Part shown: piece after piece, positions 4,714 to 27,991 of the stretch
Layout of the letters: the number at the start of each line of letters is the position of its first letter
Numbering within the stretch: position 1 is the stretch's first letter
From: Mesorhizobium sp. M1C.F.Ca.ET.210.01.1.1
Lineage (GTDB): Bacteria; Pseudomonadota; Alphaproteobacteria; Rhizobiales; Rhizobiaceae
Length of the DNA: 64,000 bases
NCBI RefSeq assembly: GCF_004791585.1
Contig: NZ_SRUU01000006.1
Span: 1-64,000 of the forward strand
Direction: 5' to 3'
The notes under the pieces: model-generated
What the model was told of the DNA's origin: nothing
Databases searched by the model: none
What the model saw: only the letters and a program-made list of their open reading frames with translations
Position numbers and translations under genes: made by a program

Positions 4714-4720
4714 GACGGCG

Positions 4721-6905: not shown

Positions 6906-6922
6906 ATTAGTATACAAATGAT
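6906..6922. promoter_or_regulatory. Putative operator ATTAGTATACAAATGAT upstream of hyuA
   Basis: The palindromic core is TTnGTATACnAA. It lies 79-95 nt before hyuA and 126-142 nt before fpr. Fifteen of 17 bases are identical to the site upstream of the molybdenum-hydroxylase operon (20739-20755), and the GTATACAAA core recurs upstream of the Liv importer (27979-27987). This points to one shared regulator of the GntR or MarR type. Confidence 0.6.
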
Positions 6923-7000
6923 CTCCAGGTCAAGATGGCAGCGTAAAACGCCTTTCCAAACCGAGGCATATCCGTAGTCGTCGTATTTCGGGTTTCGGCA

Positions 7001-9073
7001 ATGAATGAGAAATTTTCGGCATCGGCTGGAAGCGTCGTTGCTGGCATCGATGTCGGCGGAACCTTCACCGACCTGCTTTTGATCGACGGCAAGGCGGGCG
7101 GCAAAGTGCATATCGCCAAGACCCCGACGACGGTGGAAAATCAGGCCTTTGGCGTGGTCGCCGCGCTTGGCGCCACCGGCTTTCCGGTCGACGGCATCGA
7201 CCTCATCGTGCACGGTACGACGACCACCACCAATGCGGTGCTGGAGCGGCGGCTGGCACGAACCGGCATGATCACCACGCGCGGCTTCCGCGACGTGATC
7301 GAGCTTGGACGGCGCACCCGCCCGCAGGCCTATGGCATGACGGGTACCTTCGTCCCCGTCATTCCTCGGGATCTCAGGCTCGAAGTGTCGGAGCGGGTCG
7401 AGGCGTCCGGCACCGTCCGCGTTGCGCTCGACGAGGCAGAAATGCGCGACGCGGTGAAGCGGCAGCTCGCTGCCGGCTGCGAGTCGCTCGTCATCCATTT
7501 CCTGCATTCCTACGCCAACCCGGCGCATGAGCGGCGCGCGGCCGAGATCGCGGCCGAGCTCTGGCCGAACGGCCACATCACCACCGGCCATGCGCTGCTT
7601 TCGGAAGCGCGCGAGTTCGAGCGCGGCGTGACGGCGGCGGTCAACGCCTCGGTGCAGCCGATCCTCGAACGCTATGTCGAGCGGCTGCGCAAGGAACTCG
7701 GCGCAAAAGGCTATGCCCGCGACTTCCTGATCATGAACGGCAATGGCGGCATGATCTCGGCCCGCTTCGTCACCCAGGAATCGGCCAAGACCGTGATGTC
7801 CGGCCCGGCCTCGGGCGTGATCGCCGCCGCCTATACCGGCAAGCGGGCCGGCTTCGGCAACCTCGTCACCTACGACATGGGCGGCACCTCGACCGACGTG
7901 GCGCTGATCCGCAATGCGGAGCCAGCCGTCTCGAACGAGATCGAAATCGAATATGCGATGCCGATCCATGTGCCGATGGTGGCGGTGCACACGGTAGGCG
8001 CCGGCGGCGGCTCGATCGCGCGCGTCGACGCGGCCGGGCTGATCCAGATCGGCCCGGAAAGCGCCGGCGCCAATCCAGGCCCGATCTGTTATGGCCGCGG
8101 CGGCACCGAGCCGACCATCACTGACGCCAATCTGGTGCTCGGCCGGCTGGCGCCGAAGAAGCTGCTGGCGGTCGACAATCCGGTCACCGTCGAGCGCGTC
8201 ACTGGCATCTTCGAGGACAGGATCGGCAAGCGGACCAGCCTTTCCGGCGTCGAGGCAGCGGGCGCTGTCTTGCGGCTCGGCAACATGAAGATGGCGGGCG
8301 CCATCCGCATGGTGTCAGTGTCGCGCGGCCACGATCCGCGCGATTTCGCGCTGTTCGCCTTTGGCGGCGCCGGGCCGCTGCATGCGACGGCGCTGGCGCG
8401 CGAGCTCGGCCTGCCCCGCGTGCTGGTGCCGGCGCGCCCCGGCATCACCAACGCGCTAGGCTGCGTGGTCGCCGATCTGCGGCATGACTTCGTCAACACG
8501 GTCAACCAGCCGGTCGGTGGGCTCGACGAAGCTGCTATTCGCCAGGTATTGGAACGGCACCGTAACGAAGGCGAGGCGCTGATCGCCAAGGAAGCGGTGA
8601 AGCCGGACGCGATCCGCGTCACCCACTCCGCCGACATGCAGTTCGTCGGCCAGACCCACATCATCAACGTGCCGCTGCCTTCGCCGTCGGTGACGCGGGC
8701 GACGCTGCAGCAGCTGTTCGAAAAGGCCTATTTCGCGCGCTTCAAGGTCGAGCTGCCGGAGATCCGCGCCAATCTGGTCAACCTCAACACCTCGGTGACC
8801 GGCGTGCGGCCGCAGATCGACCTGTCGCGCCTGATCGACCCGGCGGGGCGCGCGGCGACGCTTGAGGAAGCGCGGCGCGAGATCCGGCCGGTCTGGTATC
8901 ACGGCACCTGGCACGACACGCCGGTCTATGCCCGCGAAAAGCTGCCGCTCGACGCGGTCCTCGAGGGGCCGGCGATCCTGGAGCAGATGGACGCCACCAC
9001 GGTGCTCGAACCTGGCGACCGGGCGCGCTCGGACGCCGACGGCAACATCATCATCGACATCGGCGAGGCCTAA
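7001..9073 (+). CDS. hyuA: Hydantoinase/oxoprolinase family protein, subunit A
   Basis: The 690-residue protein is the ATP-binding subunit of the HyuA/HyuB family, which includes N-methylhydantoinase, 5-oxoprolinase and acetone carboxylase. These enzymes phosphorylate a cyclic amide or ketone and then hydrolyse or carboxylate it. Actin-like ATPase motifs are clear: GIDVGGTFTD at residues 15-24, HGTTTTTNA near 68 and YDMGGTSTDVALI near 292. The C-terminal region matches the usual HyuA end. hyuB starts one base after its stop codon. No strong ribosome site precedes the ATG. The promoter region holds a site shared with the molybdenum-hydroxylase and Liv operons, suggesting that HyuAB opens a lactam made by that pathway. 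Substrate unknown. Confidence 0.92.
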   Translation: MNEKFSASAGSVVAGIDVGGTFTDLLLIDGKAGGKVHIAKTPTTVENQAFGVVAALGATGFPVDGIDLIVHGTTTTTNAVLERRLARTGMITTRGFRDVIELGRRTRPQAYGMTGTFVPVIPRDLRLEVSERVEASGTVRVALDEAEMRDAVKRQLAAGCESLVIHFLHSYANPAHERRAAEIAAELWPNGHITTGHALLSEAREFERGVTAAVNASVQPILERYVERLRKELGAKGYARDFLIMNGNGGMISARFVTQESAKTVMSGPASGVIAAAYTGKRAGFGNLVTYDMGGTSTDVALIRNAEPAVSNEIEIEYAMPIHVPMVAVHTVGAGGGSIARVDAAGLIQIGPESAGANPGPICYGRGGTEPTITDANLVLGRLAPKKLLAVDNPVTVERVTGIFEDRIGKRTSLSGVEAAGAVLRLGNMKMAGAIRMVSVSRGHDPRDFALFAFGGAGPLHATALARELGLPRVLVPARPGITNALGCVVADLRHDFVNTVNQPVGGLDEAAIRQVLERHRNEGEALIAKEAVKPDAIRVTHSADMQFVGQTHIINVPLPSPSVTRATLQQLFEKAYFARFKVELPEIRANLVNLNTSVTGVRPQIDLSRLIDPAGRAATLEEARREIRPVWYHGTWHDTPVYAREKLPLDAVLEGPAILEQMDATTVLEPGDRARSDADGNIIIDIGEA

Positions 9074-9074
9074 G

Positions 9075-10766
9075 ATGGCAAAGCTCGACACGATCACGCT
9101 TTCGGTGCTGCAGGCGGCCCTGCAGCAGGTCTGCGACGAGATGGATCTGACGTTTTCCCGCGCGGCCTTCTCGCCAGTCATCGCCGAGGCCAATGACCGC
9201 TCGGACGGGATCTATTCGGCGGTGGACGGCTCGCTGATCGCGCAGGGCAGCCAGGGCCTGCCGGTGTTCGTCGGCGTCATGCAGTATTCGACGAAGACAG
9301 TGATCGAGATGATCGCCGACGGCCGCTGCCTGGCGCCTGAGCCCGGCGACATCTACATCGTCAACGATCCCTATCTCGGCGGCACGCATCTGATGGACGT
9401 GCGCTTCGTCATGCCGGTCTACCGGACCGGCAAGATTTTCTGCTGGCTCTCCAATACCGGGCACTGGCCGGATATCGGCGGCTCGGTGCCGGGCGGCTTC
9501 TCGGCCTCGGCCACGGCCGTCGAGCAGGAAGGCTTGCGACTGCCGCCTGTGAAACTGTTCAAGAAGGGCGCGCTCGATCCGGAAATCTACGCCATCATCT
9601 GCTCGAACATCCGCGTTGCCGACCAGCGCATCGGCGATATCCGCGCGCAGGCGGCTGCCTTGCTGATCGGCCAGGACAGGCTCAATGAAATCCTCGATCG
9701 TTACGGCGACGAAACCGTCGTCGAGGCAATTGCCGAGTTGCGGCGGCGAGCCGCCGAGCAGATGCGCGCCTCGATCGCGGTCATACCGGACGGCGTGTAC
9801 CGCTCGCAGGCCTTCGTCGATTCCGACGGGGTAGTGAACGAGCCGCTGACCATCAATCTCGCGGTCGAAAAGAAAGGCGACACGCTGACCTTCGATTTCG
9901 GCGGCTCGTCAAAGCCTTGCGCCGGACCGATGAACAGCGTGCTGGCGACGACCTTGTCGTCGGTCTATCTCGCCATGCGCCACATCTTCCCCGAAGTGCC
10001 GATCAGCGCCGGCGCTTTCGAGCCGCTGATCGTGAGGCGACCGGAGGGTACCTTCCTCGACGCGAAATATCCTCGGCCCGTATCGGGCTGCGCGGCGGAG
10101 GTTTCGCAGCGTATCGCCGAATCGGTGTTCGCGGCCATGGTGCAGGCGTTGCCGGAGAAGGTGACGGCGGCGCCCGCCGGCTCCAGCGGCAATTTCGCGC
10201 TCGGCGGCAACGATCCCGTGCGCGGGCGCGACTATGTCATGTACCAGATCTCGGGCGGCGGCTATGGCGGCAATGCCGGCCATGACGGCTTGAGCAATGG
10301 CTGCTCGACCATCGGCATTTCGAAATCGCCGCCGGTCGAGATCATGGAGCAGGCCTTTCCGGTACTCTATCGGCATTATGCGCTGCGCGAAGGCTCCGGC
10401 GGCGCCGGCAGGCATCGCGGCGGCTTTGGGCTCGCCTATGAGGTCGAGATATTGCGCGGCGAGGCCCGCGCATCCTTTGTCATGGACCACGGCCGTTTCG
10501 GCCCGCAAGGCGCACTCGGCGGCAAGGACGGAGCGCCGAACAGCGTGACCGTGTTCCGCGGCGGCGAAGCGCATGTGCCGCCGCATCTTTCCAAGGAACA
10601 GGATATCGCGCTCAAAGCCGGCGACCGCGTGCGCGTCGGCACGCCCGGCGGTGGCGGTTACGGCGACCCGAGCGAGCGCGACCCGAAGCTGGTCGCCGAG
10701 GATGTCAGGCTCGGCTACTACACGGCCGAACAGGCGCGGGAGATGTTCGGTGGGCCTTCCGGCTGA
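9075..10766 (+). CDS. hyuB: Hydantoinase B/oxoprolinase family protein
   Basis: HyuB is the partner subunit of HyuA in ATP-dependent cyclic amide hydrolases. The 563-residue sequence carries the conserved family segments SVLQAALQQVCDEMDLT at the start, NDPYLGGTHLMDV near residue 96, a GGSSKPCAGPMNS-type block in the middle and a glycine-rich GTPGGGGYGDP near the C-terminus. The ATG at 9075 lies one base after the hyuA stop and has GGCGAGG upstream inside hyuA, so the two are translationally linked. The longer upstream frame is only the hyuA sequence read out of frame. The length is typical for a separate HyuB subunit. Confidence 0.92.
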   Translation: MAKLDTITLSVLQAALQQVCDEMDLTFSRAAFSPVIAEANDRSDGIYSAVDGSLIAQGSQGLPVFVGVMQYSTKTVIEMIADGRCLAPEPGDIYIVNDPYLGGTHLMDVRFVMPVYRTGKIFCWLSNTGHWPDIGGSVPGGFSASATAVEQEGLRLPPVKLFKKGALDPEIYAIICSNIRVADQRIGDIRAQAAALLIGQDRLNEILDRYGDETVVEAIAELRRRAAEQMRASIAVIPDGVYRSQAFVDSDGVVNEPLTINLAVEKKGDTLTFDFGGSSKPCAGPMNSVLATTLSSVYLAMRHIFPEVPISAGAFEPLIVRRPEGTFLDAKYPRPVSGCAAEVSQRIAESVFAAMVQALPEKVTAAPAGSSGNFALGGNDPVRGRDYVMYQISGGGYGGNAGHDGLSNGCSTIGISKSPPVEIMEQAFPVLYRHYALREGSGGAGRHRGGFGLAYEVEILRGEARASFVMDHGRFGPQGALGGKDGAPNSVTVFRGGEAHVPPHLSKEQDIALKAGDRVRVGTPGGGGYGDPSERDPKLVAEDVRLGYYTAEQAREMFGGPSG

Positions 10767-11040
10767 GGGCTTCGCGGAAGCGGCCGAGTCTGCGCAGAAC
10801 GAGGATCATGCGCGGGATCAAGGCGGGGGCATTCTCACCCAGCCGGTCGTGCCGTCAGGGTTTTCATGGGCCCGCGCCTGCTGCCGCCGAACGCGCAACT
10901 GAGCGGATCGTTCGTTGTCGCGGTCAGGGCTTCCAGCCAGGCGAGTCGCTCTCCCTGGCGCCCGATTATGCACCCGCCCAGGCGCCTCCGGCAGTGGCGC
11001 CACCCACACGCATCAATATCGCCCACGCCGCCGGAACCGC
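10767..11040. other. Non-coding stretch between convergent hyuB and flavin oxidase gene
   Basis: No convincing gene, repeat or terminator is seen in these 274 bases. One plus-strand frame reads a short protein-like run around 10895-11010 (GQGFQPGESLSL), which may be the relic of a lost gene. The stretch marks the border between the hyuAB unit and a two-gene module of different style. Confidence 0.4.
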
Positions 11041-12465: not shown

Positions 12466-12576
12466 TATCGTGTCCTCCTCTCTCGAAGGGAGGCAACATC
12501 GGACCACCGTGTAGCGCTGCCGTATAGTCAAGAATCTGGACTTCACAGCCGACGTCGGGCGTGGAACACTGGTGGT

Positions 12577-13275: not shown

Positions 13276-13356
13276 CATCCTAGTCTGGATGCGGCGACCG
13301 TTGCGGCACCGCCGCCGCCAGGAGCAAGGCAATCACATATAGGATCCTTGTGAGAA

Positions 13357-13490: not shown

Positions 13491-13566
13491 TAAGGCGAAG
13501 GCCTCCGCTATCCATATGCGATTGCCCTGCCGCCAGGAGAGGGCGCGACGTATCGCCGGCACCCGT

Positions 13567-14028
13567 TCACGCCAGCTTCGCCAGCAGCCGCAAAAATGTC
13601 GCGGCTTCCTTGGCGGTGAGCGGGGCCAGCGTTTCCTCGGTTATGGAGCGGGCAAGCGGGATCAGCCGTTCGATCGCCTCGCGGCCTTCCGGCGTCAGGT
13701 TGACCAGCAGCCGCCGCTTGTCGACCTCGTGCTTGGAAAGCTCGACGAGGCCACGCGCCTTCAGCCGGTCGATAACGCCTTTCACCGTGGCGGCGTCCAT
13801 GGCGATCAGCGTGCCGAGCTGGTTCTGCGAAGTCTCGCCGATATCGTAGAGCTTGGCTAAAGCCGCGAATTGCGGCGGCGTCAGATCGCCGATGTGGGCG
13901 GCAAAGATCGAGACGTGGCGCTGATGCGCCTTGCGCAGGATGAAGCCGACCTGATCCTGCAGATGGTAGTTGTTTTCGTCCGGCTCCTCGGCCTCGACCA
14001 GCCGCAGCAGATTGTCCTCGCCGCTCAT
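13567..14028 (-). CDS. MarR-family transcriptional regulator, NicR-like
   Basis: The 153-residue protein has the MarR layout: an N-terminal dimer helix (DQVGFILRKAHQRHVSIFAAH), a winged helix around residues 60-110 (TSQNQLGTLIAMDAATVKGVIDRL, then the wing DKRRLLVNLTPEG) and a C-terminal dimer helix. The GFILRKAHQRH and LTPPQFAAL pattern resembles NicR-type regulators, which in pseudomonads sense 6-hydroxynicotinate. Its ATG overlaps the stop of the DUF1185 gene by 4 nt, so it is the last gene of the six-gene molybdenum-hydroxylase operon and probably its own regulator. A link to the shared site upstream of the operon is inferred. Confidence 0.88.
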   Translation of the reverse strand: MSGEDNLLRLVEAEEPDENNYHLQDQVGFILRKAHQRHVSIFAAHIGDLTPPQFAALAKLYDIGETSQNQLGTLIAMDAATVKGVIDRLKARGLVELSKHEVDKRRLLVNLTPEGREAIERLIPLARSITEETLAPLTAKEAATFLRLLAKLA

Positions 14029-14609
14029 CGCAACCCATCCCACGCCTTGATGTCCTCGGCCGCTAGGCCGCCCATCCGGTTGTGGACACGCGGACCGCAG
14101 GTCATGGCGAGGCAGAACAGGATCTCGTCCGGACGCGGCCCGTCGCTGATGCCGACCTCCATGGCGTCGAAATGGCTGCGCACATAGGCGGCGTTGATGT
14201 GGCCGAGCGGCACGTCGAGCCGCGACCCGAAAGCGCCGACCTTCTTTGCCGACGGCACGATCGCCTTGGCGTCGCCGAGCCGCTCGCGCATGGCGTAACC
14301 GCCCGGCACGTGCCACAGCGCGCCGTGCTCCAGCTCACCGTCCGAACCGACGATGGCGCCCTTGCCGTAGCCGTCGATCTTCCTCACGTCGCCGCCAAGT
14401 GCTGCAATCAGCTTGTCGGCCAGCAGAAGCCCGAGCGGCTTCAGGTCGTCCATCGCGCCTTGCAACTCCTCGACATAGCGGCCGGCGAACGGGTTCTTCA
14501 CCACGGCAAGAGCGGCGGCGCGGCGGCGCGGCTCTTTCGCCACGGGGCCACCGTCATGAAAAATCTCCTCGGTCAGAACCGCGACCTTGCGGATCGGAAA
14601 GTCAGGCAT
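14025..14609 (-). CDS. DUF1185 (amino acid synthesis family, PF06684) protein
   Basis: The 194-residue protein matches the DUF1185/AA_synth family, which is common in alphaproteobacterial catabolic operons and has no settled biochemical role. Recognisable blocks are EIFHDGG near residue 15, NPFAGRYVEEL near 38, a GYGKGAIVG segment near 100 and GPRPDEILFCLAMTCGPRVHNRMGGL near the end. It lies inside an operon whose other products hydroxylate and reduce an N-heterocycle, so it may act on a downstream ring-opened or amide intermediate. GAAGGAAA precedes the ATG. It overlaps both neighbours by 8 and 4 nt, so its expression must be tied to theirs. No signal peptide or membrane segment is present. 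Confidence 0.85.
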   Translation of the reverse strand: MPDFPIRKVAVLTEEIFHDGGPVAKEPRRRAAALAVVKNPFAGRYVEELQGAMDDLKPLGLLLADKLIAALGGDVRKIDGYGKGAIVGSDGELEHGALWHVPGGYAMRERLGDAKAIVPSAKKVGAFGSRLDVPLGHINAAYVRSHFDAMEVGISDGPRPDEILFCLAMTCGPRVHNRMGGLAAEDIKAWDGLR

Positions 14610-15486
14610 GGGCAGTTTCCTTCACCTTATGCTTGTTGGGCGCGGCGAGCGCCACGGGGCCACTGATGCGGGTTTGGCCCGCCAGAAACAGCGCCGATGC
14701 GGCGATCAAGCCGCGCCGGCGAAAATCTTCGGCGACGGCAAGGCCGTTGTCCAGCGCCCGCGCCACCTGGCCGGGCGCAAGCGCGCCGACGCCCTGCGTC
14801 ACCAGCCGATCGCCGAGGTCGCTGTCGGGCGCAAGATCACGCGCCGGCACGCGACGGATTGCCGGGTGTCCGGGCAGGTCGACGGCGTTGGCGATCAGCG
14901 TCGCCGCTGCGTCAGCCTCGGCACCGGACCGCGCTAGAACAGTCACCGCATCCGCTATGCCGAACGAAAAGGAGCGGCCGCGCCAGCCGCTGGTCGCGAC
15001 GCCGCGCACGCCGTCCTCGGCATGGATCGTGATGCGATCGGCCATGCCGTGCCCGGTGCCGGCGATCGCCAGTGTCATCGACTGACCCCTGGCAAGATGG
15101 ATGGCGCTGTCACCGCCATTGTTGACATAGGCGCGCTCCAGCCGGCGCCCGGCAAGCAATGCGGCAAGCATTTCGTCGGCTACCGAGCCGGCGACGGCGG
15201 CCATCGGCGTGATGAAGCTTTCGGACAATGGCACAACCGCCGCCTCCATGCGCCGCGCCGTCGGGCCAGCGAAACCGCGCGGCAGCAAGGACGCGGGACG
15301 GCGCAGTTCGGGAAGTTCTTCGACCAGCTCGTTCAAAATCGTCTGGAAACGCGCGACAGCCTGCGCATAGGCGGCGCGTCGTTCATCGGCCCCGCCAAAC
15401 ACCTCGACGACGAGGTCGATCGGCCCATGATTGAGATGAAGCCGCCTGCCATCGGCGAGCCAATGCGCCTGCGGGCCGTTCATCAT
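14602..15486 (-). CDS. UPF0280 family protein
   Basis: The 294-residue protein matches UPF0280, an uncharacterised family with an ApbE-like fold. Conserved features seen are RRMEAAVVPLSESFITPMAAVAGSVADEML in two pieces around residues 80-110, the NNGGDSAIHLARG loop, and the glycine-rich GVATSGWRGRSFSFGIADAVTVLA stretch. Two ATGs (15486 and 15483) are adjacent, and the first overlaps the stop of the reductase gene in an ATGA. It stands directly after the 6-hydroxynicotinate-reductase-like gene, so a role as an accessory or flavin-linked factor of that enzyme is possible but unproven. Confidence 0.85.
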   Translation of the reverse strand: MMNGPQAHWLADGRRLHLNHGPIDLVVEVFGGADERRAAYAQAVARFQTILNELVEELPELRRPASLLPRGFAGPTARRMEAAVVPLSESFITPMAAVAGSVADEMLAALLAGRRLERAYVNNGGDSAIHLARGQSMTLAIAGTGHGMADRITIHAEDGVRGVATSGWRGRSFSFGIADAVTVLARSGAEADAAATLIANAVDLPGHPAIRRVPARDLAPDSDLGDRLVTQGVGALAPGQVARALDNGLAVAEDFRRRGLIAASALFLAGQTRISGPVALAAPNKHKVKETAHA

Positions 15487-17024: not shown

Positions 17025-19816
17025 CGGCGCGCCTCCTTTTCACGGATGGCCGCCAGGATACGGCTCGGCGTCGCCGGCACCTTGGTGACCAGGACGCCTG
17101 TGGCGTGGCGGATGGCATTGAGGATCGCCGGCGCCGTCGGGATCAGCACATGCTCGCCAAGGCCCTTGGCGCCGAATGGTCCTTCCGGATCCGGAACCTC
17201 GACCAGGATGTGCTCGACCGGCGGCACGTCGCCGATGGTCGGGATGAGGTAGTCGTGCAGGTTCTCGGTGCGGCCGGGGATGTATTCCTCCATCAGCGCC
17301 ATGCCGATGCCCTGCGCGATGCCGCCCTCGATCTGGCCTTCGACCAGCACCGGATTGATCGCCTTGCCGACATCGTGCGCGGCGGTGATCTTGATCAGCT
17401 TCACGGTGCCGAGCTTGAGGTCGACCTCTAGCTCGGCGATCTGCGCGCCATAGCCATAGACGGCATAGGGCTTGCCCTGGCCCTTGGCGTCGAGCGGCAG
17501 CGTCGGCGGGTCGTAGGTTTCCTCGGCGACGAACACCAGGCCATCGGCATCAGCCTTCAGGGTCGCGAGATCGATCAGCCGCGTCGCGTCGCCTTCGCGG
17601 ATGGAGATGCTTGCGCCGTCGACCGCGATCGTCGCCTGGCCGGAGACATTGGCGAAGCGCAGGATTTTTTCGCGCAAGGCGCGGCCCGCTTTCTCCGCTG
17701 CCTTGCCGGTGACAAAAGTCTGGCGCGAGGCGGACGTCTTGCCGGCGTCTGGCGTGATGGCGGTGTCGGCGCTCTTCAGCCGGAACTTCTCCAGCGGCAG
17801 GCCGAGCGCGTCGGCACAGATCTGGGTGATGACGGTGTTCGAGCCCTGGCCGATGTCGACCGCGCCCTGGTGCAGCACCACATCGCCCGAGGCCGAGATA
17901 CCGACCTTGATGGTCGAGGGATTGGGCAGCGAAGTGTTGCCGCAGCCGTACCAGCAGGAGGCGATGCCGACGCCACGTTTGCTTGCGGTATGGGTCGCGT
18001 TGAACGCCTCCGCATCGCCAAGCGCGCGCGACCAGTGCGGCTGCAACTGCTCCAGGCATTCGCCGATGCCGACGCCCGATTCCAGGCGTTGTCCGGTGAC
18101 TGTTTCGGATCCGTTACGAAGGCAGTTTTTCAAGCGGAAGTCGAGCCGATCCAGGCCGAGCTTGCCGGCGAGCTCGTCATAGAGCGTTTCCTGCATGATG
18201 GTCGCCTGCGGCACACCGAAGCCGCGGAAGGCGCCGGCGATCGGGCCGTTGGTGTGGATGGCATAGCCCGTCGCCCGGTAGTTCGGCGTCAGATAGGGGC
18301 CGGAGGCATGCACCGGTACGCGGTTGGCGACGGTCGGGCCCCAACTGGCATAAGCGCCGGTGTTGAAATCGCCGGTAAACACCATGCCGGTGACGCGGCC
18401 CTCGGCATCGGTGCCGATGGTCGCTTTCATCTCCGCCGGATGGCGCTTGGTGGTCGACACCATCGATTCATTGCGCGTGTAGGCAAGTGCTGCCGGCCGT
18501 CCCGTCTTGATCGCCACCAGGCCGATGAGAGGCTGCAGCGAGACATCGAGCTTGGAGCCGAAGCCGCCGCCGGTGGCGGTCGGCACGATGCGCACCTTGT
18601 CGACCGGCAGGCCGAGCACCTTGGCCGTGTCGTCGCGATCCATATAAGGCGCCTGCGTGCAGGCGACGACGACCAGCGTGTCGCCGTCCATGTAAGCATA
18701 GCCGGCTTCCGGCTCGATATAGGCATGCTCGACGAAGGATGTCTCGATGGTGCCGGACGCGGTGATTGCGGCGCCAGCGATAGCGGCATCCGGATCGCCC
18801 CGTTCGACAAAGCCCGACGTGAGCAGGTTCGCGGGCCGGTTAAGGTGGATCAACGCAGCGCCGTCGGCTTTTGCTTCGCCGGGCTGCAGCACATGCGGCA
18901 GCTCCGTCCAGGTGACCGGAAAATCTTTCAGGTCGAGATCCAAGATCGCTTCGCGCTCGCCCGCCACCAGCGCCACCGCCTCGCCGCGAAAGCGCGCGAA
19001 GCCCTCGGCGAGCGCCGGCTGGTCGGCAAAGGGCCCGATCACGCCGAAGCGGTTGGTGCCAGGGATATCGGCGGCGGTGAAGACGCCGGCAATGCCGGGA
19101 CGGGATTTGGCCCAGGCTCCGAGATCGCCGAAGCTGAAGCGGGCATGATAGTGCGGCGAGCGTACCACGAGCACGGCGAGCGCATCGGCCGGGAAGGAAT
19201 CGCCACCGAACTTCTCGTCGCCGGTAACCTTCGGCACACCATCAAGGCGAATCGGCGAGGCGCCGACGGCGTGGCCGACGCCGGGCATGCGGCGATCGAC
19301 AACGTCAAGATGGCGCGAAGCATGCATCACCGCCGCGACGATTTTTCGATAGCCGGTGCAGCGGCAAAGCACGCCGCCCAGCGCATCCTGCGTCTCGGCC
19401 TCGCTCGGCGTCGGATTGCGCTCCAGAAGCGCGGTGGCCGCCACCAGCAGGCCCGGCGTGCAGATGCCACATTGCGCGGCGCCGTGCTCCAGGAACGAGG
19501 CCTGCAGGGCGGACAGCCTGCCATTGGCGAGGCCCTCGACCGTGGTGACGCAAGCGCCGGATACCGAGGCCGCAGGCATGAGGCAGGCACAGACCGGATC
19601 GCCGTCGACAAGCACGGTGCAGGCGCCGCAATCGCCGGCGTCGCAGCCGACCTTGGTGCCGGTGAGCCGCAGCTCGTCGCGCAAGACCTGCGACAGCCGC
19701 CGCACCGGCGGCACCGATACGCTGACGGCAGCACCGTTGACCTCGAAGGCGATGTCGGCACGTTGCATGCCCGTGGACGGCCGGGCCTTGCCGATGTCGG
19801 GCCGCGCTTCGTTCAT
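17021..19816 (-). CDS. Molybdopterin hydroxylase with fused [2Fe-2S] domain (xanthine dehydrogenase family)
   Basis: The 931-residue protein joins two parts that are usually separate subunits. Residues 20-170 form a CoxS-like domain with all eight Fe-S cysteines (C58, C63, C66, C78, C116, C119, C151, C153). From about residue 190 a CoxL-like Mo-cofactor domain follows, with GGGFGSK, GAFRGFGVPQ and the active-site Glu in GAKGLGEH near residue 885. Such enzymes hydroxylate N-heterocycles using water, and nicotinate or isonicotinate types are examples. The FAD subunit is the gene just upstream, overlapping by 4 nt, and the next gene downstream is the Fe-S reductase. The likely reaction is therefore ring hydroxylation before ring reduction. 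Substrate inferred. Confidence 0.9.
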   Translation of the reverse strand: MNEARPDIGKARPSTGMQRADIAFEVNGAAVSVSVPPVRRLSQVLRDELRLTGTKVGCDAGDCGACTVLVDGDPVCACLMPAASVSGACVTTVEGLANGRLSALQASFLEHGAAQCGICTPGLLVAATALLERNPTPSEAETQDALGGVLCRCTGYRKIVAAVMHASRHLDVVDRRMPGVGHAVGASPIRLDGVPKVTGDEKFGGDSFPADALAVLVVRSPHYHARFSFGDLGAWAKSRPGIAGVFTAADIPGTNRFGVIGPFADQPALAEGFARFRGEAVALVAGEREAILDLDLKDFPVTWTELPHVLQPGEAKADGAALIHLNRPANLLTSGFVERGDPDAAIAGAAITASGTIETSFVEHAYIEPEAGYAYMDGDTLVVVACTQAPYMDRDDTAKVLGLPVDKVRIVPTATGGGFGSKLDVSLQPLIGLVAIKTGRPAALAYTRNESMVSTTKRHPAEMKATIGTDAEGRVTGMVFTGDFNTGAYASWGPTVANRVPVHASGPYLTPNYRATGYAIHTNGPIAGAFRGFGVPQATIMQETLYDELAGKLGLDRLDFRLKNCLRNGSETVTGQRLESGVGIGECLEQLQPHWSRALGDAEAFNATHTASKRGVGIASCWYGCGNTSLPNPSTIKVGISASGDVVLHQGAVDIGQGSNTVITQICADALGLPLEKFRLKSADTAITPDAGKTSASRQTFVTGKAAEKAGRALREKILRFANVSGQATIAVDGASISIREGDATRLIDLATLKADADGLVFVAEETYDPPTLPLDAKGQGKPYAVYGYGAQIAELEVDLKLGTVKLIKITAAHDVGKAINPVLVEGQIEGGIAQGIGMALMEEYIPGRTENLHDYLIPTIGDVPPVEHILVEVPDPEGPFGAKGLGEHVLIPTAPAILNAIRHATGVLVTKVPATPSRILAAIREKEARR

Positions 19817-20673
19817 GCCGCCACCTTGTCGCTGTTGCCGTCGCCGATGGCTACCCGCAGGGCACGGGCAACGATCTCGCGCGCCGCGTCCTGCCGGTAT
19901 TCAGCGCTGCCGCGCACATCGCCGATCGGCGACAATTCATTGATCGGCGCCGAAAGCATCGCGCCGGCGAGCGCCTCGTCGATCGGACGCCCGCGCAGGG
20001 CCGCCTCGACGCCGGCAAGACGGCGGGCAACCGCGGAACAGGCGCCGACGGCGATTGCGGCATCGGCGACCGCGCCGTCCTCGACCACCAGGCGAACCGC
20101 AGCCATGGCAATCGAGATGACCAGATAGCGCCGGGCGCCGAGCTTGACGAAGGCCGATGCGCCGACGGCCGAGCGCTTCGGCACGCGAATGGCCGTGACC
20201 ATCTCGCCGGGCTGCAGCGCGGTGCTGCGATTGCCGAGGATGAACTCGCCAAGCGGCAGCTGGCGCGTGGCCTTCGTCGATCGCAATTCCACTTCGGCAT
20301 CGAGCACCAGCAGCGCCGGCACGCCATCGGCGGCAGGCGAGGCGTTGCAGAGATTACCGGCGACGGAAGCGACGTTCTGGATCTGGACCGAGCCGACTTC
20401 GCGCGCGGCAGCCTTCAGCGCGTCGAACGCCGCCGGCAGCGGGTGGCGCACAATGTCGGTCCAGGTGGTGCGGGCGCCGAGCCGCCAATGATCGTCCATC
20501 TCGGCAATGCCGCGCAGTTCGGCCAGGCCATTGATATCGAGAATGTTATCGCGGAAGGGATTTGCGCCCTGCACCGGATAGAAATCCGTACCGCCGGCAA
20601 GAATGCGCCAGCGGTCCCCGCCAAGCAGGGCGAGCGCCTCGTCAACCGTGGTGGGTTTCGCGTAACGGATCAC
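19813..20673 (-). CDS. FAD-binding subunit of molybdenum hydroxylase (CoxM-like)
   Basis: A 286-residue member of the FAD-binding domain family in molybdopterin dehydrogenases. It shows ILAGGTDFYP near residue 24 and SVAGNLCNASPAADGVPALL near 105, the two FAD-contact motifs, and a CO-dehydrogenase flavoprotein C-terminal domain. It would take electrons from the [2Fe-2S] centres of the fused partner encoded next and pass them to an acceptor. The GTG at 20673 was chosen because GGAAGG lies six bases before it; the extra upstream residues do not fit the family. It is the first gene of the operon, and a putative operator lies 66-82 nt upstream. Confidence 0.9.
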   Translation of the reverse strand: MIRYAKPTTVDEALALLGGDRWRILAGGTDFYPVQGANPFRDNILDINGLAELRGIAEMDDHWRLGARTTWTDIVRHPLPAAFDALKAAAREVGSVQIQNVASVAGNLCNASPAADGVPALLVLDAEVELRSTKATRQLPLGEFILGNRSTALQPGEMVTAIRVPKRSAVGASAFVKLGARRYLVISIAMAAVRLVVEDGAVADAAIAVGACSAVARRLAGVEAALRGRPIDEALAGAMLSAPINELSPIGDVRGSAEYRQDAAREIVARALRVAIGDGNSDKVAA

Positions 20674-20738
20674 GCTTTGCCTTCCCGAAAAGGGGCTTTT
20701 CCGAGGGAACCTGCCGGGCATCAGGCTCGAGCAAATTC

Positions 20739-20755
20739 ATTCGTATGCAAATGAT
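20739..20755. promoter_or_regulatory. Putative operator ATTCGTATGCAAATGAT upstream of the Mo-hydroxylase operon
   Basis: It differs from the hyuA site at 6906-6922 at only two of 17 positions, although the surrounding DNA is unrelated. It lies 66-82 nt before the GTG start of the FAD subunit gene, as expected for a promoter-proximal operator. The extra common ATGAT on the right shows that the likeness goes beyond a palindromic core. Confidence 0.6.
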
Positions 20756-21641: not shown

Positions 21642-21648
21642 CCCGCCT

Positions 21649-23100
21649 GTGAGGCATCGAGGGGGCTTCTCAGCATCGAAAAAAGGTGGGGCTGCGGGCC
21701 TGGCTGCCGCAGCCTTGGTCGCCTTTGCAGAACCGGCTTTTGCCGCCGAAACACATGAGCTGCCGGGCGCGGCGATGTCGCTGTGGTGGGCGTTGCCCTT
21801 TGCCGGCCTGCTGTTGTCGATCGCGACCGGACCGCTGCTCTTCCATCATGTCTGGGAGCATCACTACGGCAAGATCGCCGCCGCCTGGGCGGCGCTGGTT
21901 GTGCTGCCACTGGCAATCGCCTTCGGCATCCCGACCGCAGGCGAGGCGGTGCTGCACACACTGCTCACCGAATACATGTCCTTCATCATCCTGTTGTTCG
22001 CGCTCTACACGATCTCTGGCGGCATCCTGCTTGCCGGCAATATCCACGGCACGCCGCTGGTCAATGCCGGGCTGCTGCTTGTCGGCGCGCTGCTTGCCTC
22101 GATCATCGGCACGACCGGCGCCTCGATGATCCTGATCCGGCCGATGCTGCGCGCCAACGACAACCGGCCGTTCAACGCCCATGTGGTGATCTTCTTCATC
22201 TTCCTGGTATCCAACATCGGCGGCTCGCTGACGCCGCTCGGCGACCCGCCACTGTTCGTCGGCTTCCTGCGCGGCGTCGACTTCTTCTGGACGACGGTGC
22301 ACATACTGCCCGACACGCTGTTCGTCGGCGGCCTGGTGCTGGCGATCTTCCTCGCACTCGACATCGTCCTGCACCGCCGCGAAGCCGGAATGCCGAAGAT
22401 CAAGGACCCGACCCCGGACACCAAGGTGCGGCTGCGCGGGCTGGCTAACCTGCCGCTGCTTGCCGGCGTCATCGGCGCGATCCTGCTGTCGGCCAGCTGG
22501 AAGCCGGGCGTCAGCTTCTCCATCTTCGGCGCCAGCCTCGAGCTCCAGAACCTGGTGCGCGACGCCATCATCCTGGCGCTGGCCTGGCTGTCGCTTCGCG
22601 TCTCGTACAAGAGCCACAGGCAAGCGAATGGCTTCACCTGGGGGCCGATCGCCGAGGTCGCGAAGTTGTTTGCCGGCATCTTCATCTGCATCGTGCCGGT
22701 CATCGCCATCCTGAGGGCGGGTCACGACGGCGCGCTGGCGCCGCTGGTGTCGCTCGTCACCTCCGCCGACGGCCAGCCCAACGACCTCGCCTATTTCTGG
22801 CTGACTGGCGCGCTGTCGTCCTTCCTCGACAATGCGCCGACCTATCTGGTGTTCTTCGAGCTTGCCGGCGGCGACGCGAAGCACCTGATGACCGAGGCTG
22901 CCTCGACCCTCGCTGCGATCTCGGCGGGCGCGGTGTTCATGGGCGCCAACACCTATATCGGCAACGCGCCGAACTTCATGGTGTTTGCCATCGCCAGGCA
23001 TCGCGGCTTCAAGATGCCGGGCTTCTTCGGCTACATGGCGTGGTCAGGCCTCGTGCTGATCCCGACCTTTTTGATCGCGGGTTTTCTGTTCTTCGGGTGA
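21649..23100 (+). CDS. NhaD/ArsB-type sodium:proton antiporter family membrane protein
   Basis: A polytopic inner-membrane protein of up to 483 residues and about 11-13 hydrophobic segments, belonging to the ion-transporter superfamily that includes NhaD and CitM. Conserved signatures are FLVSNIGGSLTPLGDPPLFVGFL near residue 190 and the second half FLDNAPTYLVFFELAG followed by FMGANTYIGNAPNFMV. A cleavable signal-like N-terminus ends in AFAEPAFAAE. The start is uncertain: GTG at 21649 has no clear ribosome site, and it follows pncA by only 7 nt, so coupling to pncA is likely. It may exchange Na+ or an organic ion. The transported ion cannot be settled here. Confidence 0.8.
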   Translation: MRHRGGFSASKKGGAAGLAAAALVAFAEPAFAAETHELPGAAMSLWWALPFAGLLLSIATGPLLFHHVWEHHYGKIAAAWAALVVLPLAIAFGIPTAGEAVLHTLLTEYMSFIILLFALYTISGGILLAGNIHGTPLVNAGLLLVGALLASIIGTTGASMILIRPMLRANDNRPFNAHVVIFFIFLVSNIGGSLTPLGDPPLFVGFLRGVDFFWTTVHILPDTLFVGGLVLAIFLALDIVLHRREAGMPKIKDPTPDTKVRLRGLANLPLLAGVIGAILLSASWKPGVSFSIFGASLELQNLVRDAIILALAWLSLRVSYKSHRQANGFTWGPIAEVAKLFAGIFICIVPVIAILRAGHDGALAPLVSLVTSADGQPNDLAYFWLTGALSSFLDNAPTYLVFFELAGGDAKHLMTEAASTLAAISAGAVFMGANTYIGNAPNFMVFAIARHRGFKMPGFFGYMAWSGLVLIPTFLIAGFLFFG

Positions 23101-23115
23101 GTTGGCGCGGAGCTT

Positions 23116-23219
23116 TACCTCCCCCTTGTGGGGAGGTCGGACCGAAGGTCCGGGTGGGGGTCGGCGCCGTACCCCCGCCCCGCTGCTTCGCAGCGACCCT
23201 CCCCACAAGGGGGAGGGTG
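23116..23219. repeat. Palindromic repeat element between convergent genes
   Basis: The ends TACCTCCCCCTTGTGGGGAG (left) and the CTCCCCACAAGGGGGAGGG part of the right end are near-perfect inverted repeats. Inside are two different small hairpins (GGACCGAAGGTCC and GCTGCTTCGCAGC) next to GGTGGGGGT/ACCCCC. It fills the gap between the NhaD-like gene and livF, which end toward each other, and would serve as a two-way terminator. Same family as 4566-4713. Confidence 0.9.
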
Positions 23220-23223
23220 AGCC

Positions 23224-23944
23224 TCAACCGACGCCGACATAGCGTCGCACCGCCGATGGATCAGACCGCAAGGCCTCGACATCGACCGTCTCGCGGTTGC
23301 GGCCGTTCTCGATGAAGCAAACGCGGTCGGCGACCGACAGCACGGCGTCGACGCGTTGTTCGACCAGTATCGTCGAGACGTCGAGATCGCGCAGCTTCGC
23401 CACCGTCTCGAGGATTTTCGCGATCATCGACGGCATCAGTCCTTCGGTCGGCTCGTCGAGCAACAGCACCTGCGGCTCCAGGCAGAGCGCGCGGGCCATG
23501 GCCAGCATCTGCTGCTCGCCGCCGGAGAGCGTGCCGGAGCGCTGTTTCAGCCGCTCGCGCAGCAGCGGGAAAAGGTCGAGCACGCTCTCGCGGGTGGCCT
23601 TGCCCTTGCCGCGCGCCATCAGGCCGATCTCGATGTTTTCCGCCACCGTCATCTCGGCAAACAGCCGCCGGCCCTGCGGCACATAGGCGACGCCGGCCTT
23701 CGGCACGTCATGCGCGGCGAGCCCGGTCAGCTCAGCGCCGTCCAGCCTGATCGAGCCGGCCGCGGCCGGCACCAGCCCCATGATCGCCTTCAGCGTCGTC
23801 GTCTTGCCGGCGCCGTTGCGGCCGAACAGGCACAGCACCTCGCCCTTGTTCAGCACGAGGTCGAGACGGTAGAGCACCTGGACCTCGCCATAGAAGCAGT
23901 CCAGCCCGGAGATGGTGAGCAGCCCTCGATCGACCATATGGGGA

Positions 23945-23952
<8 letters not shown>
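23224..23952 (-). CDS. livF: Branched-chain-type ABC transporter ATP-binding protein LivF
   Basis: A 242-residue ABC ATPase of the LivF class. It shows Walker A GRNGAGKTT near residue 40, the Q-loop in VAYVPQGRRLF, signature LSGGEQQMLAMARAL, Walker B VLLLDEPTEGL and the H-loop replaced by the usual LivF VEQ segment. It is the last gene of a five-gene importer operon, overlapping livG by 8 nt. The ATG at 23952 (MADPHMV) fits the family start. With livG it energises uptake through LivH and LivM. Genes of this class carry amino acids, amides or aromatic acids, so the name is structural and not a claim about the substrate. Confidence 0.93.
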
Positions 23953-24669
<717 letters not shown>

Positions 24670-24670
<1 letters not shown>

Positions 24671-25632
24671 CACGGCAGCCACCCCAGCCAGCGTTGACGG
24701 ATCGAGCCCAGAATGCCCTTCGGGGCAAACAGCACAAGCAGGATCAGCGCTACGCCGACGATCAAAAGATAGGCGGAGGTGAAGCCGCTGGTAATGTCGG
24801 TGACATAGTACATGAACAGCGTGCCAACGAGCGGCCCGAGCGTCGTCGCGGCGCCGCCGAGCAGCACCCAGAGCAGCGGCAGGATCGAATATTGCACCGA
24901 AGCGAAGCTCGAGCCGATGTAACCGAAGAGCAGCGCATAGGCCGCGCCCGAGGCCGCGCAGATGGCGCCCGAGGTAACGACCGCTGCGAGCTTGTTGGCG
25001 ACCGTGTCGTAGCCCAGCATCTTGGTGCGCTCCTCATTCTCGCGAATGGCGACCAGCACGCGGCCGAAACGGGAGCGGACGACGGCAAGCGTGACAAGCA
25101 GCACGACCGAGAACAGCGCCAGCGCGCTCATGTAGCGCACAGCTGGGTTGGTCAGGTCGAGCGAGGCGCCGCCGATCGAGATCACCCGCGACGCCTGCTG
25201 GATGACCAGGCCCTGATCGCCGCCGGTCCAGGCGGCGAAATAGAGGATGAGCAGATAGAAGACCTGGGCGAACATCATGGTGACGATCATGAACGCCACA
25301 CCCGAGGTGCGCAGCGCAAGCAGGCCGATGACCAAGGCGAGCAGCGCGCCGCAGGCAACTCCTGCGACGAAGGCTTCCGGCACGCCCCAGCCGAGATGGT
25401 AGACCGTCAGCCCGGCGCCATAGAGGCCGGCGGAGAAGAACATGGCGTGGCCGAGGCTGAGCAGGCCGACATAGCCGAAGAGCAGATTGTAGCCCGTGGC
25501 GAAGACGGCCAACGCCATGATGCGGGCGAAGAGGCCCTGATGGTAGTCGGGCAGGATGAAGTTCAGCACGAACAGAAGCGCAATGACGCCGACGTGCAGC
25601 GCGTAGGTCTTTGCCGGCGAAGCATCCCTCAT
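24670..25632 (-). CDS. livM: Branched-chain-type ABC transporter permease LivM
   Basis: A 320-residue inner-membrane permease with about nine to ten hydrophobic segments. It has the LivM hallmark GYNLLFGYVGLLSLGHAMFF near residue 47 and the cytoplasmic coupling segment VVRSRFGRVLVAIRENEERTKMLGYD in the middle, which contacts the ATPases. The ATG at 25632 overlaps the livH stop in an ATGA. The longer frame upstream is livH read in another frame. It forms the channel with LivH. Confidence 0.93.
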
Positions 25633-26510
25633 CGCTGCGCGGACCCGAACAGGCCTTGCGGCCGGAACACCAGAACCATGGCGACGACCAGCGTGGCGAT
25701 GATCTTGGCCAAAGTCGGCGAGAAGAACACCGAAATGATGCCGTCGGAGAGGCCGATCAGGACGGCGGCGACCACGGTGCCGCGCAGCGAGCCGAGGCCG
25801 CCGATGATGACGACGATGAAGGACAACAGCAGCGGGTCCTGCCCCATCAGGTAGTGCGCCTGGCTGATCGGCACGATCAGCACGGCGGCGATCGCCGCCA
25901 GCATGGCGCCGATGGCGAAGACGCCGGCATAGACGCGCTCGACCGGAATGCCGAAGGCCTGCGCGGTCTCGCGGTCGTACTGGGTGGCGCGCATGATCAT
26001 TCCGATCTTGGTGCGTGTCAGCACCAGCCAAGTCAGCACCAGCAGCAGAGCCGAGGCGGCGACGACCGACAGCTTGTAGCCGGAATAGCCGAACCACGGC
26101 AAAAGGATGCGGTAGCTGAAGGGCGGCTCGACCGGGCGCGCCTCCGGGCCGTAGAAGGTCAGCGCCAGCTGCTGGATGATGTAGAGCATGCCGATGGTGG
26201 CGACGATGGTGCTTTCGGGATTGTAGCTCAGCCGGCGCAGCACCAGCCATTCAGCAAGAAACGCGACCAGCCCGACCAGCAAGGGCGCGATCACCAGCGC
26301 CGCGACGAAGCCGATCGCGGGATGGCCGGAGATCGCCGTCGAGACCGCCCAGGCAAGCACCGCGCCAAGCATGAAGAACTCGCCATGGGCGACATTGACG
26401 ATGCGCATGACGCCGAAGACCAGCGACAGGCCGAGCGCCGTCAGCGCCAGCACGGCGGAAGTGACGAGACCTTCGAGGGCGGCGAGGAGGAGGTGGGGTC
26501 CGAAATGCAT
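25629..26510 (-). CDS. livH: Branched-chain-type ABC transporter permease LivH
   Basis: A 293-residue permease with eight or so membrane segments. Family motifs are GLSLVFGVMRIVNVAHGEFFMLGA near residue 27, the coupling segment TRTKIGMIMRATQYDRETAQAFGI near 185 and LSFIVVIIGGLGSLRGTV near 240. It is the second gene of the operon, 83 nt after livJ; that gap contains a stable hairpin at 26538-26560 that should lower permease expression compared with the binding protein. Confidence 0.93.
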   Translation of the reverse strand: MHFGPHLLLAALEGLVTSAVLALTALGLSLVFGVMRIVNVAHGEFFMLGAVLAWAVSTAISGHPAIGFVAALVIAPLLVGLVAFLAEWLVLRRLSYNPESTIVATIGMLYIIQQLALTFYGPEARPVEPPFSYRILLPWFGYSGYKLSVVAASALLLVLTWLVLTRTKIGMIMRATQYDRETAQAFGIPVERVYAGVFAIGAMLAAIAAVLIVPISQAHYLMGQDPLLLSFIVVIIGGLGSLRGTVVAAVLIGLSDGIISVFFSPTLAKIIATLVVAMVLVFRPQGLFGSAQR

Positions 26511-26537
26511 TGACTACACGCAGGCCGGTGCCAAGCG

Positions 26538-26560
26538 CACCCCCCGGACAGAGGGGGGTG
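26538..26560 (-). promoter_or_regulatory. Hairpin between livJ and livH
   Basis: CACCCCCC pairs with GGGGGGTG around a seven-base loop. No T-run follows, so it is more likely a processing or mRNA-stability element than a full terminator. Its sequence is like the CCGGACAGAGGGGGG part of the repeat at 29449-29609, so a repeat fragment may have been reused here. Confidence 0.6.
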
Positions 26561-26593
26561 GCCGGGCGCTCACGCTCGCTGGAGCAACCACAC

Positions 26594-27898
26594 TCACAGC
26601 GCCTGCGTCGTATAATCCCCTTCCGGCTCGTAGAGGCCGTCCTCGATCTTGGTCTTGTGGACGACCTTGAGCTTGCCGCCCTCGACCTTGGAGATGTTCT
26701 GGATGCCGAAGCACTGATGGATCTTGCCGTTGAAGCTCTTTGGACCCTGCGGATGCTCCGGGCCTTCGGCGAATTCCTTCAGCGCCTCGGTCGCCTCGAC
26801 CAGCTTGGCCCGGTCTTCCGGCCCTTTGTAGCCGGCGTCCTCCATCGCCTTCTTGACGACGTAGAGCGTTTCCCAGCAGCCGAACATGTGCGAGGCGGTG
26901 GAAATGTCCTTGGGATCGCCGACGGCGGCGCCGTTGTCGTCGATGCCGACGGCGGCGCGATAGGCCTTCTGGGCGGCGGAGTCATCGGCCTGCGCGTAGC
27001 GCGGCGAGCCTTCCCAGAAATGGCTGCCGTCGAGGAATTCAAGGCCGGGGCTGTTGATGTCGACGGCCTCGAGCGAATCCATGAAGCCGAAGAGCTGCGG
27101 CCTCTGCGAGCCGTAGAACTCGCCGAGCTCCTTGACGAAGGTGAGCACGGCCGGGCCGACCATGACGTGGTAGATCACCTCCGTCTCTGCCGGGATCTGC
27201 GGGAAGTATTTGGTGAAGGAACTCTCCGTCGGCGGGATGGCGATCTGGGCGATCACATCGGCGCCTTGCGCCTTGAGCGCCGGCGGCAGGTAGTCGCGAT
27301 GGTCGTAGCCGAAGGCGAAGTCGGGGAAGATCTGCGTCACCTTCTTGCCGGCGTTCGCCGCGATCCACGGCGCCATCGACTGGATCTGGCTCTTCACATC
27401 GGTGATGCCGGGCTGGAAGACGTAGCGGTTGAGCTTGGTCGAGGCGACGTGATGGCCTTCACTGACGACGAAATAGGGGATCTTGTTCTCGCCGGCGGCA
27501 GGCGCTGACCCGATCACGACATGCGAGAACAGCGTGCCGAAGACGATGTCGGTCTTGTGCTGGGTTGCGAACTTGCCGACCACCTCGGCGCCGCGCGCGG
27601 GATCGGTGCCGTCATCCTCGATGACCAGCTCGACCTTGCGGCCGTTGATGCCGCCGGCGTCGTTGATCGCCTTGACGGCGGCGGCGCTTGTCTTGTCGTA
27701 CCATCGACCGTAAGCGGCGCCGATGCCGGTGCGGTGCAACTGGAAGCCGATCTTGATCGGTGCCGAGCTCTGCGCCTGGCTGTAGCGAACGAAGCCCGGC
27801 GCGAGCGCAAGGCCGGCGCCGGCCGCCAGGCCTTTCAGCGCCGTGCGGCGGGAAAGCGTGGTCTTGGAGAGGTCGAAAAATCCGTTCTTGTCAGCCAT
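26594..27898 (-). CDS. livJ: Periplasmic substrate-binding protein of a Liv-type ABC importer
   Basis: A 434-residue type I periplasmic-binding-fold protein. A twin-arginine signal (SRRTALKGLAAGAG near residue 17) is followed by a cleavage region near YSQAQS, so it is exported folded by the Tat route. The mature part starts PIKIGFQLHRTGIGAAYG and has the receptor-family segments DAGGINGRKVELVIEDDGTDP and IVFGTLFSHVV. The class includes binding proteins for amino acids, amides and aromatic acids. AGGGG lies before the ATG. A GTATACAAA site lies 77-93 nt upstream, similar to sites before hyuA and the Mo-hydroxylase operon, suggesting that it imports the substrate of that pathway. Substrate inferred. 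Confidence 0.9.
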   Translation of the reverse strand: MADKNGFFDLSKTTLSRRTALKGLAAGAGLALAPGFVRYSQAQSSAPIKIGFQLHRTGIGAAYGRWYDKTSAAAVKAINDAGGINGRKVELVIEDDGTDPARGAEVVGKFATQHKTDIVFGTLFSHVVIGSAPAAGENKIPYFVVSEGHHVASTKLNRYVFQPGITDVKSQIQSMAPWIAANAGKKVTQIFPDFAFGYDHRDYLPPALKAQGADVIAQIAIPPTESSFTKYFPQIPAETEVIYHVMVGPAVLTFVKELGEFYGSQRPQLFGFMDSLEAVDINSPGLEFLDGSHFWEGSPRYAQADDSAAQKAYRAAVGIDDNGAAVGDPKDISTASHMFGCWETLYVVKKAMEDAGYKGPEDRAKLVEATEALKEFAEGPEHPQGPKSFNGKIHQCFGIQNISKVEGGKLKVVHKTKIEDGLYEPEGDYTTQAL

Positions 27899-27974
27899 GT
27901 CGGTTCCCCTGTTTTTTCAGTTTTGACCAGCGATAAGGCGGCTCGATCCTCCTTGGCCAGAGGACGAGAAAATT

Positions 27975-27991
27975 GCATGTATACAAACTAA
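27975..27991. promoter_or_regulatory. Putative operator GCATGTATACAAACTAA upstream of the Liv operon
   Basis: It shares GTATACAAA with the 6906 site and occupies the same spacing, 77-93 nt before the livJ start. The flanks differ more than between the other two sites, so this is the weakest member of the set. It lies in the divergence between livJ and the membrane-protein gene end. Confidence 0.45.

Follow-up and report, generated by a model that had tools for sequence, protein, structure and literature searches.

A predicted MarR-controlled operator shared by three operons in Mesorhizobium, with HyuAB as a candidate replacement for enamidase in reductive nicotinate breakdown

A palindromic operator upstream of three operons

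Do a hydantoinase-type gene pair (hyuAB), a molybdenum (Mo)-hydroxylase/reductase/MarR operon and a Liv-type importer operon answer to a single regulator? The question is raised by a stretch of 64,000 nucleotides from Mesorhizobium sp. M1C.F.Ca.ET.210.01.1.1 (hereafter the window), i.e. the first 64 kb of the 258,829-base contig NZ_SRUU01000006.1 in a genome of 6.8 Mb and 252 contigs, where each of these operons is preceded by a similar short sequence. As reported in the initial annotation, ATTAGTATACAAATGAT at 6906–6922 and ATTCGTATGCAAATGAT at 20739–20755 were identical at 15 of 17 positions and GTATACAAA was located at 27979–27987, upstream of livK. The complete sites were 20-bp palindromes, best written ATCATTTGTATACAAATGAT, and are predicted to be copies of one operator. 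Operator 1 (TTTATTAGTATACAAATGAT, 6903–6922) lies in a divergent promoter, with a ferredoxin reductase gene on one side and hyuA on the other, 78 nt from the hyuA ATG at 7001. Operator 2 (TTCATTCGTATGCAAATGAT, 20736–20755) is situated upstream of the Mo-hydroxylase operon, 65 nt from the GTG start of the FAD-subunit gene (20673), and the weaker operator 3 (ATTGCATGTATACAAACTAA, 27972–27991) is 80 nt from the livK ATG at 27898.

A matrix for this site was trained outside the genus by palindromic expectation-maximization, using 350 nt upstream of the operon in 49 loci (10 order-level and 39 class-level, the latter being 39 of 66 further genomes with a reductase match; L195 was removed as a duplicate of L085). 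The log-likelihood was 452 as compared to 44–56 for six shuffled sets (1500 seeds for the real and 400 for each shuffled set), and the consensus from these promoters was ATCGTTTGTATACAAACGAT. The top three scores in the window were operators 1, 2 and 3 with 28.2, 27.5 and 18.7 bits, respectively, the next best being 2.5 bits; operator 3 thus ranked third among 63,981 positions using a matrix trained without that site. In 60 simulated windows (3.84 Mb), four scores of at least 15 bits were obtained, none reached 18.7 and the best was 17.6, while TNNGTATNCAAA was found twice in the window with 0.05 occurrences expected. The observation of a shared site is confirmed and is not due to chance, the motif being too rare elsewhere for the random occurrence that had been raised as a concern.

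Beyond the genus, 143 cluster loci (2.68 Mb, including the 49 that trained the matrix) contained 275 matches of at least 15 bits versus three for the reversed matrix. The site was present in the promoter stretch of 38 of the 49 training loci and anywhere in the locus in 42, the site-positive loci spanning 26 family labels by hand count; where hyuA opens the operon (i.e. L088–L090), the site stands there. Of 77 named loci for which 300 nt or more of upstream DNA was available, 68 carried the site before the operon (the named set comprised 80 of 593 relatives, some repeating other loci). Carriers included Bradyrhizobium, Bosea, Afipia, Xanthobacter, Kaistia, Chelatococcus, Microvirga, Rhizobium setariae, Neorhizobium alkalisoli and Ferrovibrio. 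None of the nine site-less loci, six Acidobacteria among them, had a MarR orthologue in the stretch. Three Betaproteobacterial or other same-phylum loci (L241–L243) possessed the cluster and lacked the site, a point against the proposed regulon. As separate observations, the Acidobacteria L333, L335, L338, L344, L350 and L353 carried the reductase cluster with neither the operator nor a MarR orthologue linked to it, suggesting transfer with changed control, and most of the mostly Bradyrhizobium-type loci L289–L330 contained a second, usually weaker operator (about 17–26 bits), located beyond the first at roughly 130–240 nt upstream of the reductase gene.

The rest of the window's own genome was scanned for the pattern with up to two mismatches. 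Three matches (i.e. C179:7430, 22.4 bits; C54:151029, 20.5 bits; C181:15955, 19.6 bits) outscored operator 3 and are not claimed as members of the regulon; further matches scored 17.6 bits and below. The C54 match lies between a solute-binding-protein-like gene and an apparent IclR-type regulator (ORFs, i.e. open reading frames, judged by eye), and no pathway-related genes were seen beside the C179, C181 and C197 matches by eye alone, without a family search. A motif reduced to TTGTATACAA was rejected as too loose, with 14 genome places at one mismatch or fewer versus 28 for a backwards control.

Inside the genus, operator 2 (ATCATTTGCATACGAATGAA) was found in the FAD-subunit promoter of all 30 loci sampled (from 88 genomes with a reductase match). 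It was identical in 27, with one (L064), three (L075) or four (L074) changes in the others, and stood 56–102 nt from the gene in otherwise variable DNA. Operator 1 was detected in all 57 hyuA promoters sampled (from 86 genomes with a match), at 78 nt from hyuA in 55, 72 nt in L139 and 77 nt in L141, and was kept even where hyuAB is far from the reductase gene (e.g. about 128 kb in G053). As the entire intergenic stretch upstream of hyuA is conserved (88% mean column identity for five sequences), conservation of operator 1 alone is weak evidence, weaker than that of operator 2. Together with the sites in other families, these counts answer the further concern that the motif might not be conserved in orthologous promoters.

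Operator 3 is the weakest of the three sites, being degenerate, non-universal and missing in deep branches, and this counts against its membership. A site of at least 15 bits (i.e. TTAGTTTGTACACATGCAAT or one change away) was present in 22 of 24 livK promoters of the genus, all with a GTACAC core and none with the window's GTATAC. The site was lost in L076 and L078, no livK site of 12 bits was found in L244 of the same family, and that of L245 scored 13.9 bits. It is possible, if doubtful, that the regulon is limited to operators 1 and 2 and that the livK site is a relic or another regulator's site, as the modest score, the degenerate right half-site and these absences would allow. Set against this are the rank of the site under a matrix not trained on it and sites of 22–25 bits upstream of livK genes 68–73% identical in L160, L166, L336, L341 and L347. 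Membership of all three operators is preferred.

Probable assignment to reductive nicotinate breakdown and ring opening

Operon 2 begins with the FAD subunit (CoxM type; 19813–20673, minus strand; Pfam on a longer ORF) of a Mo-hydroxylase whose large subunit (17021–19816, minus strand; Pfam) contains fused 2Fe-2S domains. The enzyme is of the xanthine-dehydrogenase type (Pfam, NCBIfam) and nicotinate is its predicted substrate. A third gene (15483–17024, minus strand), found in 88 of 89 other genomes of the genus searched, encodes a protein with conserved Cys motifs and no match in Pfam or NCBIfam. This protein is approximately 70% identical to Bradyrhizobium homologues (70% to the homologue in G863) and is named 6-hydroxynicotinate-reductase-like following PMC3511419, by homology through the Bradyrhizobium comparison and not by direct comparison with the Eubacterium barkeri enzyme. 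As described in that paper, strain SG-6C degrades nicotinate, its reductase homologue matches the E. barkeri enzyme at 42%, and its reductase cluster is common to Azorhizobium and Bradyrhizobium and was assigned to the route through 1,4,5,6-tetrahydro-6-oxonicotinate (THON); the word MarR is absent from the main text (PMC3511419).

The same operon encodes a MarR-family protein (13567–14028, minus strand; Pfam MarR on the longer ORF 13567–14316), which belongs to the MarR sequence family of BpsR (Bordetella) and NicR (Pseudomonas) and would resemble them in controlling a nicotinate pathway. BpsR and NicR control the nic genes of another nicotinate route, whereas the regulon of the window would combine the reductive THON route with an importer and HyuAB. 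No BpsR or NicR operator sequence for comparison was found in the open literature searched. The best structure match overall was 2nnn (1e-35), a protein of unknown role, and BpsR (6PCP and 6PCO; E about 2e-28) came closest among the solved structures of known role. BpsR is described as a repressor of nicotinate degradation that is released by 6-hydroxynicotinate, with contacts from Tyr15, His23, Arg26 and His32, and NicR of Pseudomonas as a protein without those contact residues (PMC6837509, which reports structures 6PCP and 6PCO). Three of the four are kept in the window protein (i.e. Tyr21, Arg32 and His38), with Phe29 at the position of His23. Across 29 orthologues, Tyr and Arg were invariant, and His was present at 38 in 18 and at 29 in eight. 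The MarR protein is predicted to sense 6-hydroxynicotinate or a close derivative. Two points temper this prediction: the ligand may differ from that of BpsR, because the window has Phe at the His23 position and 11 of the 29 orthologues have Ala at that of His32, and a prediction by residue position is only suggestive since NicR does not have these residues.

The likeness of the MarR protein to BpsR and the presence of a 6-hydroxynicotinate-reductase-like protein in operon 2 point to the reductive (THON) nicotinate pathway as the most likely function of the regulon. The initial annotation had proposed an N-heterocycle regulon; its unity is supported and we infer the narrower substrate, nicotinate. 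A nicotinate phosphoribosyltransferase gene (29670–30974, minus strand; Pfam) adjoining the Liv operon fits this substrate and is also found beside the cluster in L247, L248 and L253, although no operator for it was seen in the window. The Liv-type ABC importer operon itself (23224–27898, minus strand; Pfam) comprises livK (26594–27898), livH (25629–26510) and further permease and ATPase genes, and related importers occur beside the cluster in other loci.

The window differs from the THON clusters of Azorhizobium, Bradyrhizobium, SG-6C and E. barkeri in having HyuAB in the place of enamidase and in its type of Mo-hydroxylase. The hyuA gene (7001–9073, plus strand; Pfam) encodes an ATP-dependent hydantoinase/oxoprolinase subunit, predicted to be a subunit of a THON lactamase, and hyuB (8862–10766, plus strand; Pfam PF02538) the hydantoinase B subunit, the latter range being that of a mechanical ORF in which the domain starts near 9087. 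An amidohydrolase in Bradyrhizobium locus L295 is the likely enamidase (Ena), by place and family and not by comparison with the E. barkeri enzyme; no match to enamidase was obtained in the genome of the window at 1e-60 or in the window at 1e-5. Among 80 genomes with the reductase (of 98 first listed), HyuA was present in 46 and Ena in 35, with HyuA only in 44, Ena only in 33, both in two members of the genus and neither in one fragmented genome (Fisher 6e-19). Similarly, the 143 cluster loci contained Hyu only in 28 cases, Ena only in 58, both in none and neither in 57 (limits of at least 50% identity for HyuAB and E 1e-20 for Ena, the Ena of L334, L356 and L364 being only 52–54% identical). 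The two enzymes also share a gene place. In all 58 loci of the genus, including the window, hyuA and the ferredoxin reductase gene point away from each other across the operator. For ena, this arrangement was observed in 29 of the 36 loci that contain both ena and the ferredoxin reductase gene (largely Bradyrhizobium, some duplicated), so that in Bradyrhizobium-type loci ena takes the place of hyuA across the same operator.

Several points weigh against a clean replacement. The limits for the 80 genomes (at least 55% identity for HyuA and 64% for Ena) were chosen after the gap had been seen, leaving uncounted Ena matches of 36–43% and HyuA matches of 50–52% (including the only HyuA match of G126). 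With any match at the search cut-offs counted, seven of the 80 genomes had both (G054, G086, G093, G109, G126, G252 and G437). The divergent arrangement of ena with its ferredoxin reductase neighbour was missing in seven of the 36 loci. Fisher values, here and below, overstate independence because the genomes are related and some loci were counted twice (e.g. L249/L306, L254/L298 and L166/L342). Separately, one internal stop codon was observed in the Ena matches of G214, G448 and G483 and in the HyuA match of G316.

The distribution of HyuAB and Ena, together with their shared place, is the pattern expected where one enzyme has taken over a pathway step from another. Because the two are mutually exclusive and ena stands where hyuA does, HyuAB probably opens the THON ring with ATP in enamidase's stead. 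OplAB is reported to hydrolyse delta-valerolactam, a six-membered lactam, with ATP (PMC11033972). OplAB and the caprolactamase CapAB belong to the same HyuA/HyuB family as the window proteins; they differ in that THON is an unsaturated, carboxylated lactam and in that HyuA scored 495 bits against a cut-off of 1000 for its closest NCBIfam family, caprolactamase alpha (CapA).

The ferredoxin-NADP reductase-like protein encoded on the far side of operator 1 (5953–6780, minus strand, transcribed away from the operator; Pfam; 137 of 390 bits for NCBIfam PRK10926) likely feeds electrons to the Fe-S reductase, and operator 1 probably also serves its gene. In L265, a ferredoxin reductase-marR pair is preceded by the operator, and L241 and L243, both of the same phylum, have a ferredoxin reductase gene near the reductase gene with no site. 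At 1e-8, no second ferredoxin reductase gene of this kind was found in the genome of the window, so the product may be a housekeeping protein or have other duties, a point against a dedicated role.

An unlikely alternative is a genuine regulon for another six-membered N-heterocycle (e.g. a nicotinate derivative such as trigonelline, or a fragment of nicotine), in which the substrate of HyuAB would be another lactam. It would accommodate the two-gene FAD-type Mo-hydroxylase of the window, unlike the cytochrome-c-linked enzyme in Bradyrhizobium locus L295, and two conserved cluster proteins without known role. It sits poorly with the identity of the reductase to homologues in Bradyrhizobium, a genus of the published THON cluster, with the recurring phosphoribosyltransferase neighbour, with the BpsR-like regulator, and with the complementarity and shared place of HyuAB and Ena. 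Reductive nicotinate breakdown is retained as the assignment.

The candidate regulator

The MarR protein of operon 2 is likely to read the three operators. A MarR orthologue was linked to 28 of the 49 training loci in a first search and, using a profile, to 97 of the 143 outgroup loci and all 30 loci of the genus; no scores fell in the range 100–150 bits. Of 20 genomes without apparent linkage, 14 held an orthologue above 170 bits and six had none above 96 bits; in G099, G123 and G135 the gene was no more than 9 kb away from the reductase gene and shared its contig, just past the stretch first read. Orthologue and operator occurred together in 41 loci, with one locus having MarR only, one the site only and five neither (Fisher 2e-5; 48 of the 49 loci, L081 of G120 being left out). 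No site of at least 12 bits was found at paralogue MarR loci (L269–L284 except L272; n = 15). Where marR is apart from the main operon, the operator precedes it in L183, L186, L187 and L249.

Three observations run counter to this assignment or limit it. G126 has MarR without the site (its contig ends about 360 nt upstream) and G515 the site without a MarR orthologue. Among marR loci from genomes without close linkage, only four of 15 (L260, L264, L265 and L267) had a site within the 1.5-kb flanks, so self-control by MarR is not general.

The initial annotation had named this MarR protein and linked GntR regulators as candidates. The former emerges as the best candidate, and comparative genomics supports the proposal that one regulator ties together uptake, Mo-hydroxylation, Fe-S reduction and HyuAB. 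It is highly improbable that a GntR/FadR-family protein encoded elsewhere reads the sites: although the GT-AC palindrome resembles a FadR-type consensus (FadR-subfamily sites are described as A/T-rich palindromes with TKGT/ACMA boxes; PMC4494728) and the genome holds 51 GntR matches, 45 of them above the cut-off, the genome search placed none in the window and the nearest on the contig at 78886, a GntR gene (profile built from 14 of 30 fetched domains) was linked in two of 143 outgroup and none of 30 genus loci versus 97 and 30 for the MarR orthologue, and it is MarR whose presence tracks the operator.

Neighbouring genes and proposed mechanism

Two further genes of operon 2, both on the minus strand, are conserved in the cluster. 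One encodes an AA_synth family protein (PF06684; 14025–14609) and the other a PRK04334-type protein (14602–15486; NCBIfam NF003322 above the cut-off), a type also named UPF0280. Many reductase loci contain both, and often there are two copies of AA_synth. A CitMHS_2 transporter gene (21649–23100) lies on the opposite strand between the Mo-hydroxylase and Liv operons, and a homologue was found beside the cluster in all 30 loci of the genus. The region 2177–5833, downstream of the ferredoxin reductase gene, encodes a DeoC-type aldolase and a long aldehyde dehydrogenase of 791 aa that matched over two stretches. These enzymes could act on products further along the pathway or have no connection to it.

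The proposed mechanism is predictive at each level, from DNA binding and repression to the ligand, the substrate, the individual enzyme steps and joint regulation. A MarR dimer would bind the three operators and repress the genes behind them; by analogy with BpsR, 6-hydroxynicotinate or one of its close derivatives would release it. The Liv-type importer would take up the substrate and the Mo-hydroxylase would produce 6-hydroxynicotinate, from which the Fe-S reductase would produce THON with electrons supplied by the ferredoxin reductase. HyuAB would then open the lactam ring of THON with ATP, replacing the enamidase of other members. We consider it probable that a single operator and MarR control define a reductive nicotinate regulon including HyuAB as a stand-in for enamidase. 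A broader, two-part account appears rather likely to hold in full: that HyuAB is an ATP-dependent THON lactamase replacing enamidase in about half of the sampled cluster genomes and occupying even the position of that enzyme across from the ferredoxin reductase gene, and that a single 6-hydroxynicotinate-sensing MarR protein with one operator has jointly controlled import, hydroxylation, ring reduction, electron supply and ring opening throughout the Alphaproteobacteria, whichever ring opener is present. Searches of the open literature found no account of a regulator or operator acting on the THON cluster, or of HyuAB as part of it; subscription papers were mostly outside this search, so this is no proof of absence.

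For aerobic Alphaproteobacteria of soil and plants, these predictions name a concrete pairing of regulator and operator in the reductive breakdown of nicotinate. They also include a new ATP-dependent enzyme that would open the ring of vitamin B3, backed by a strong signal in both presence/absence and gene place. The 20-bp matrix can point to missing genes of the pathway, including those for the two conserved proteins of unknown role.

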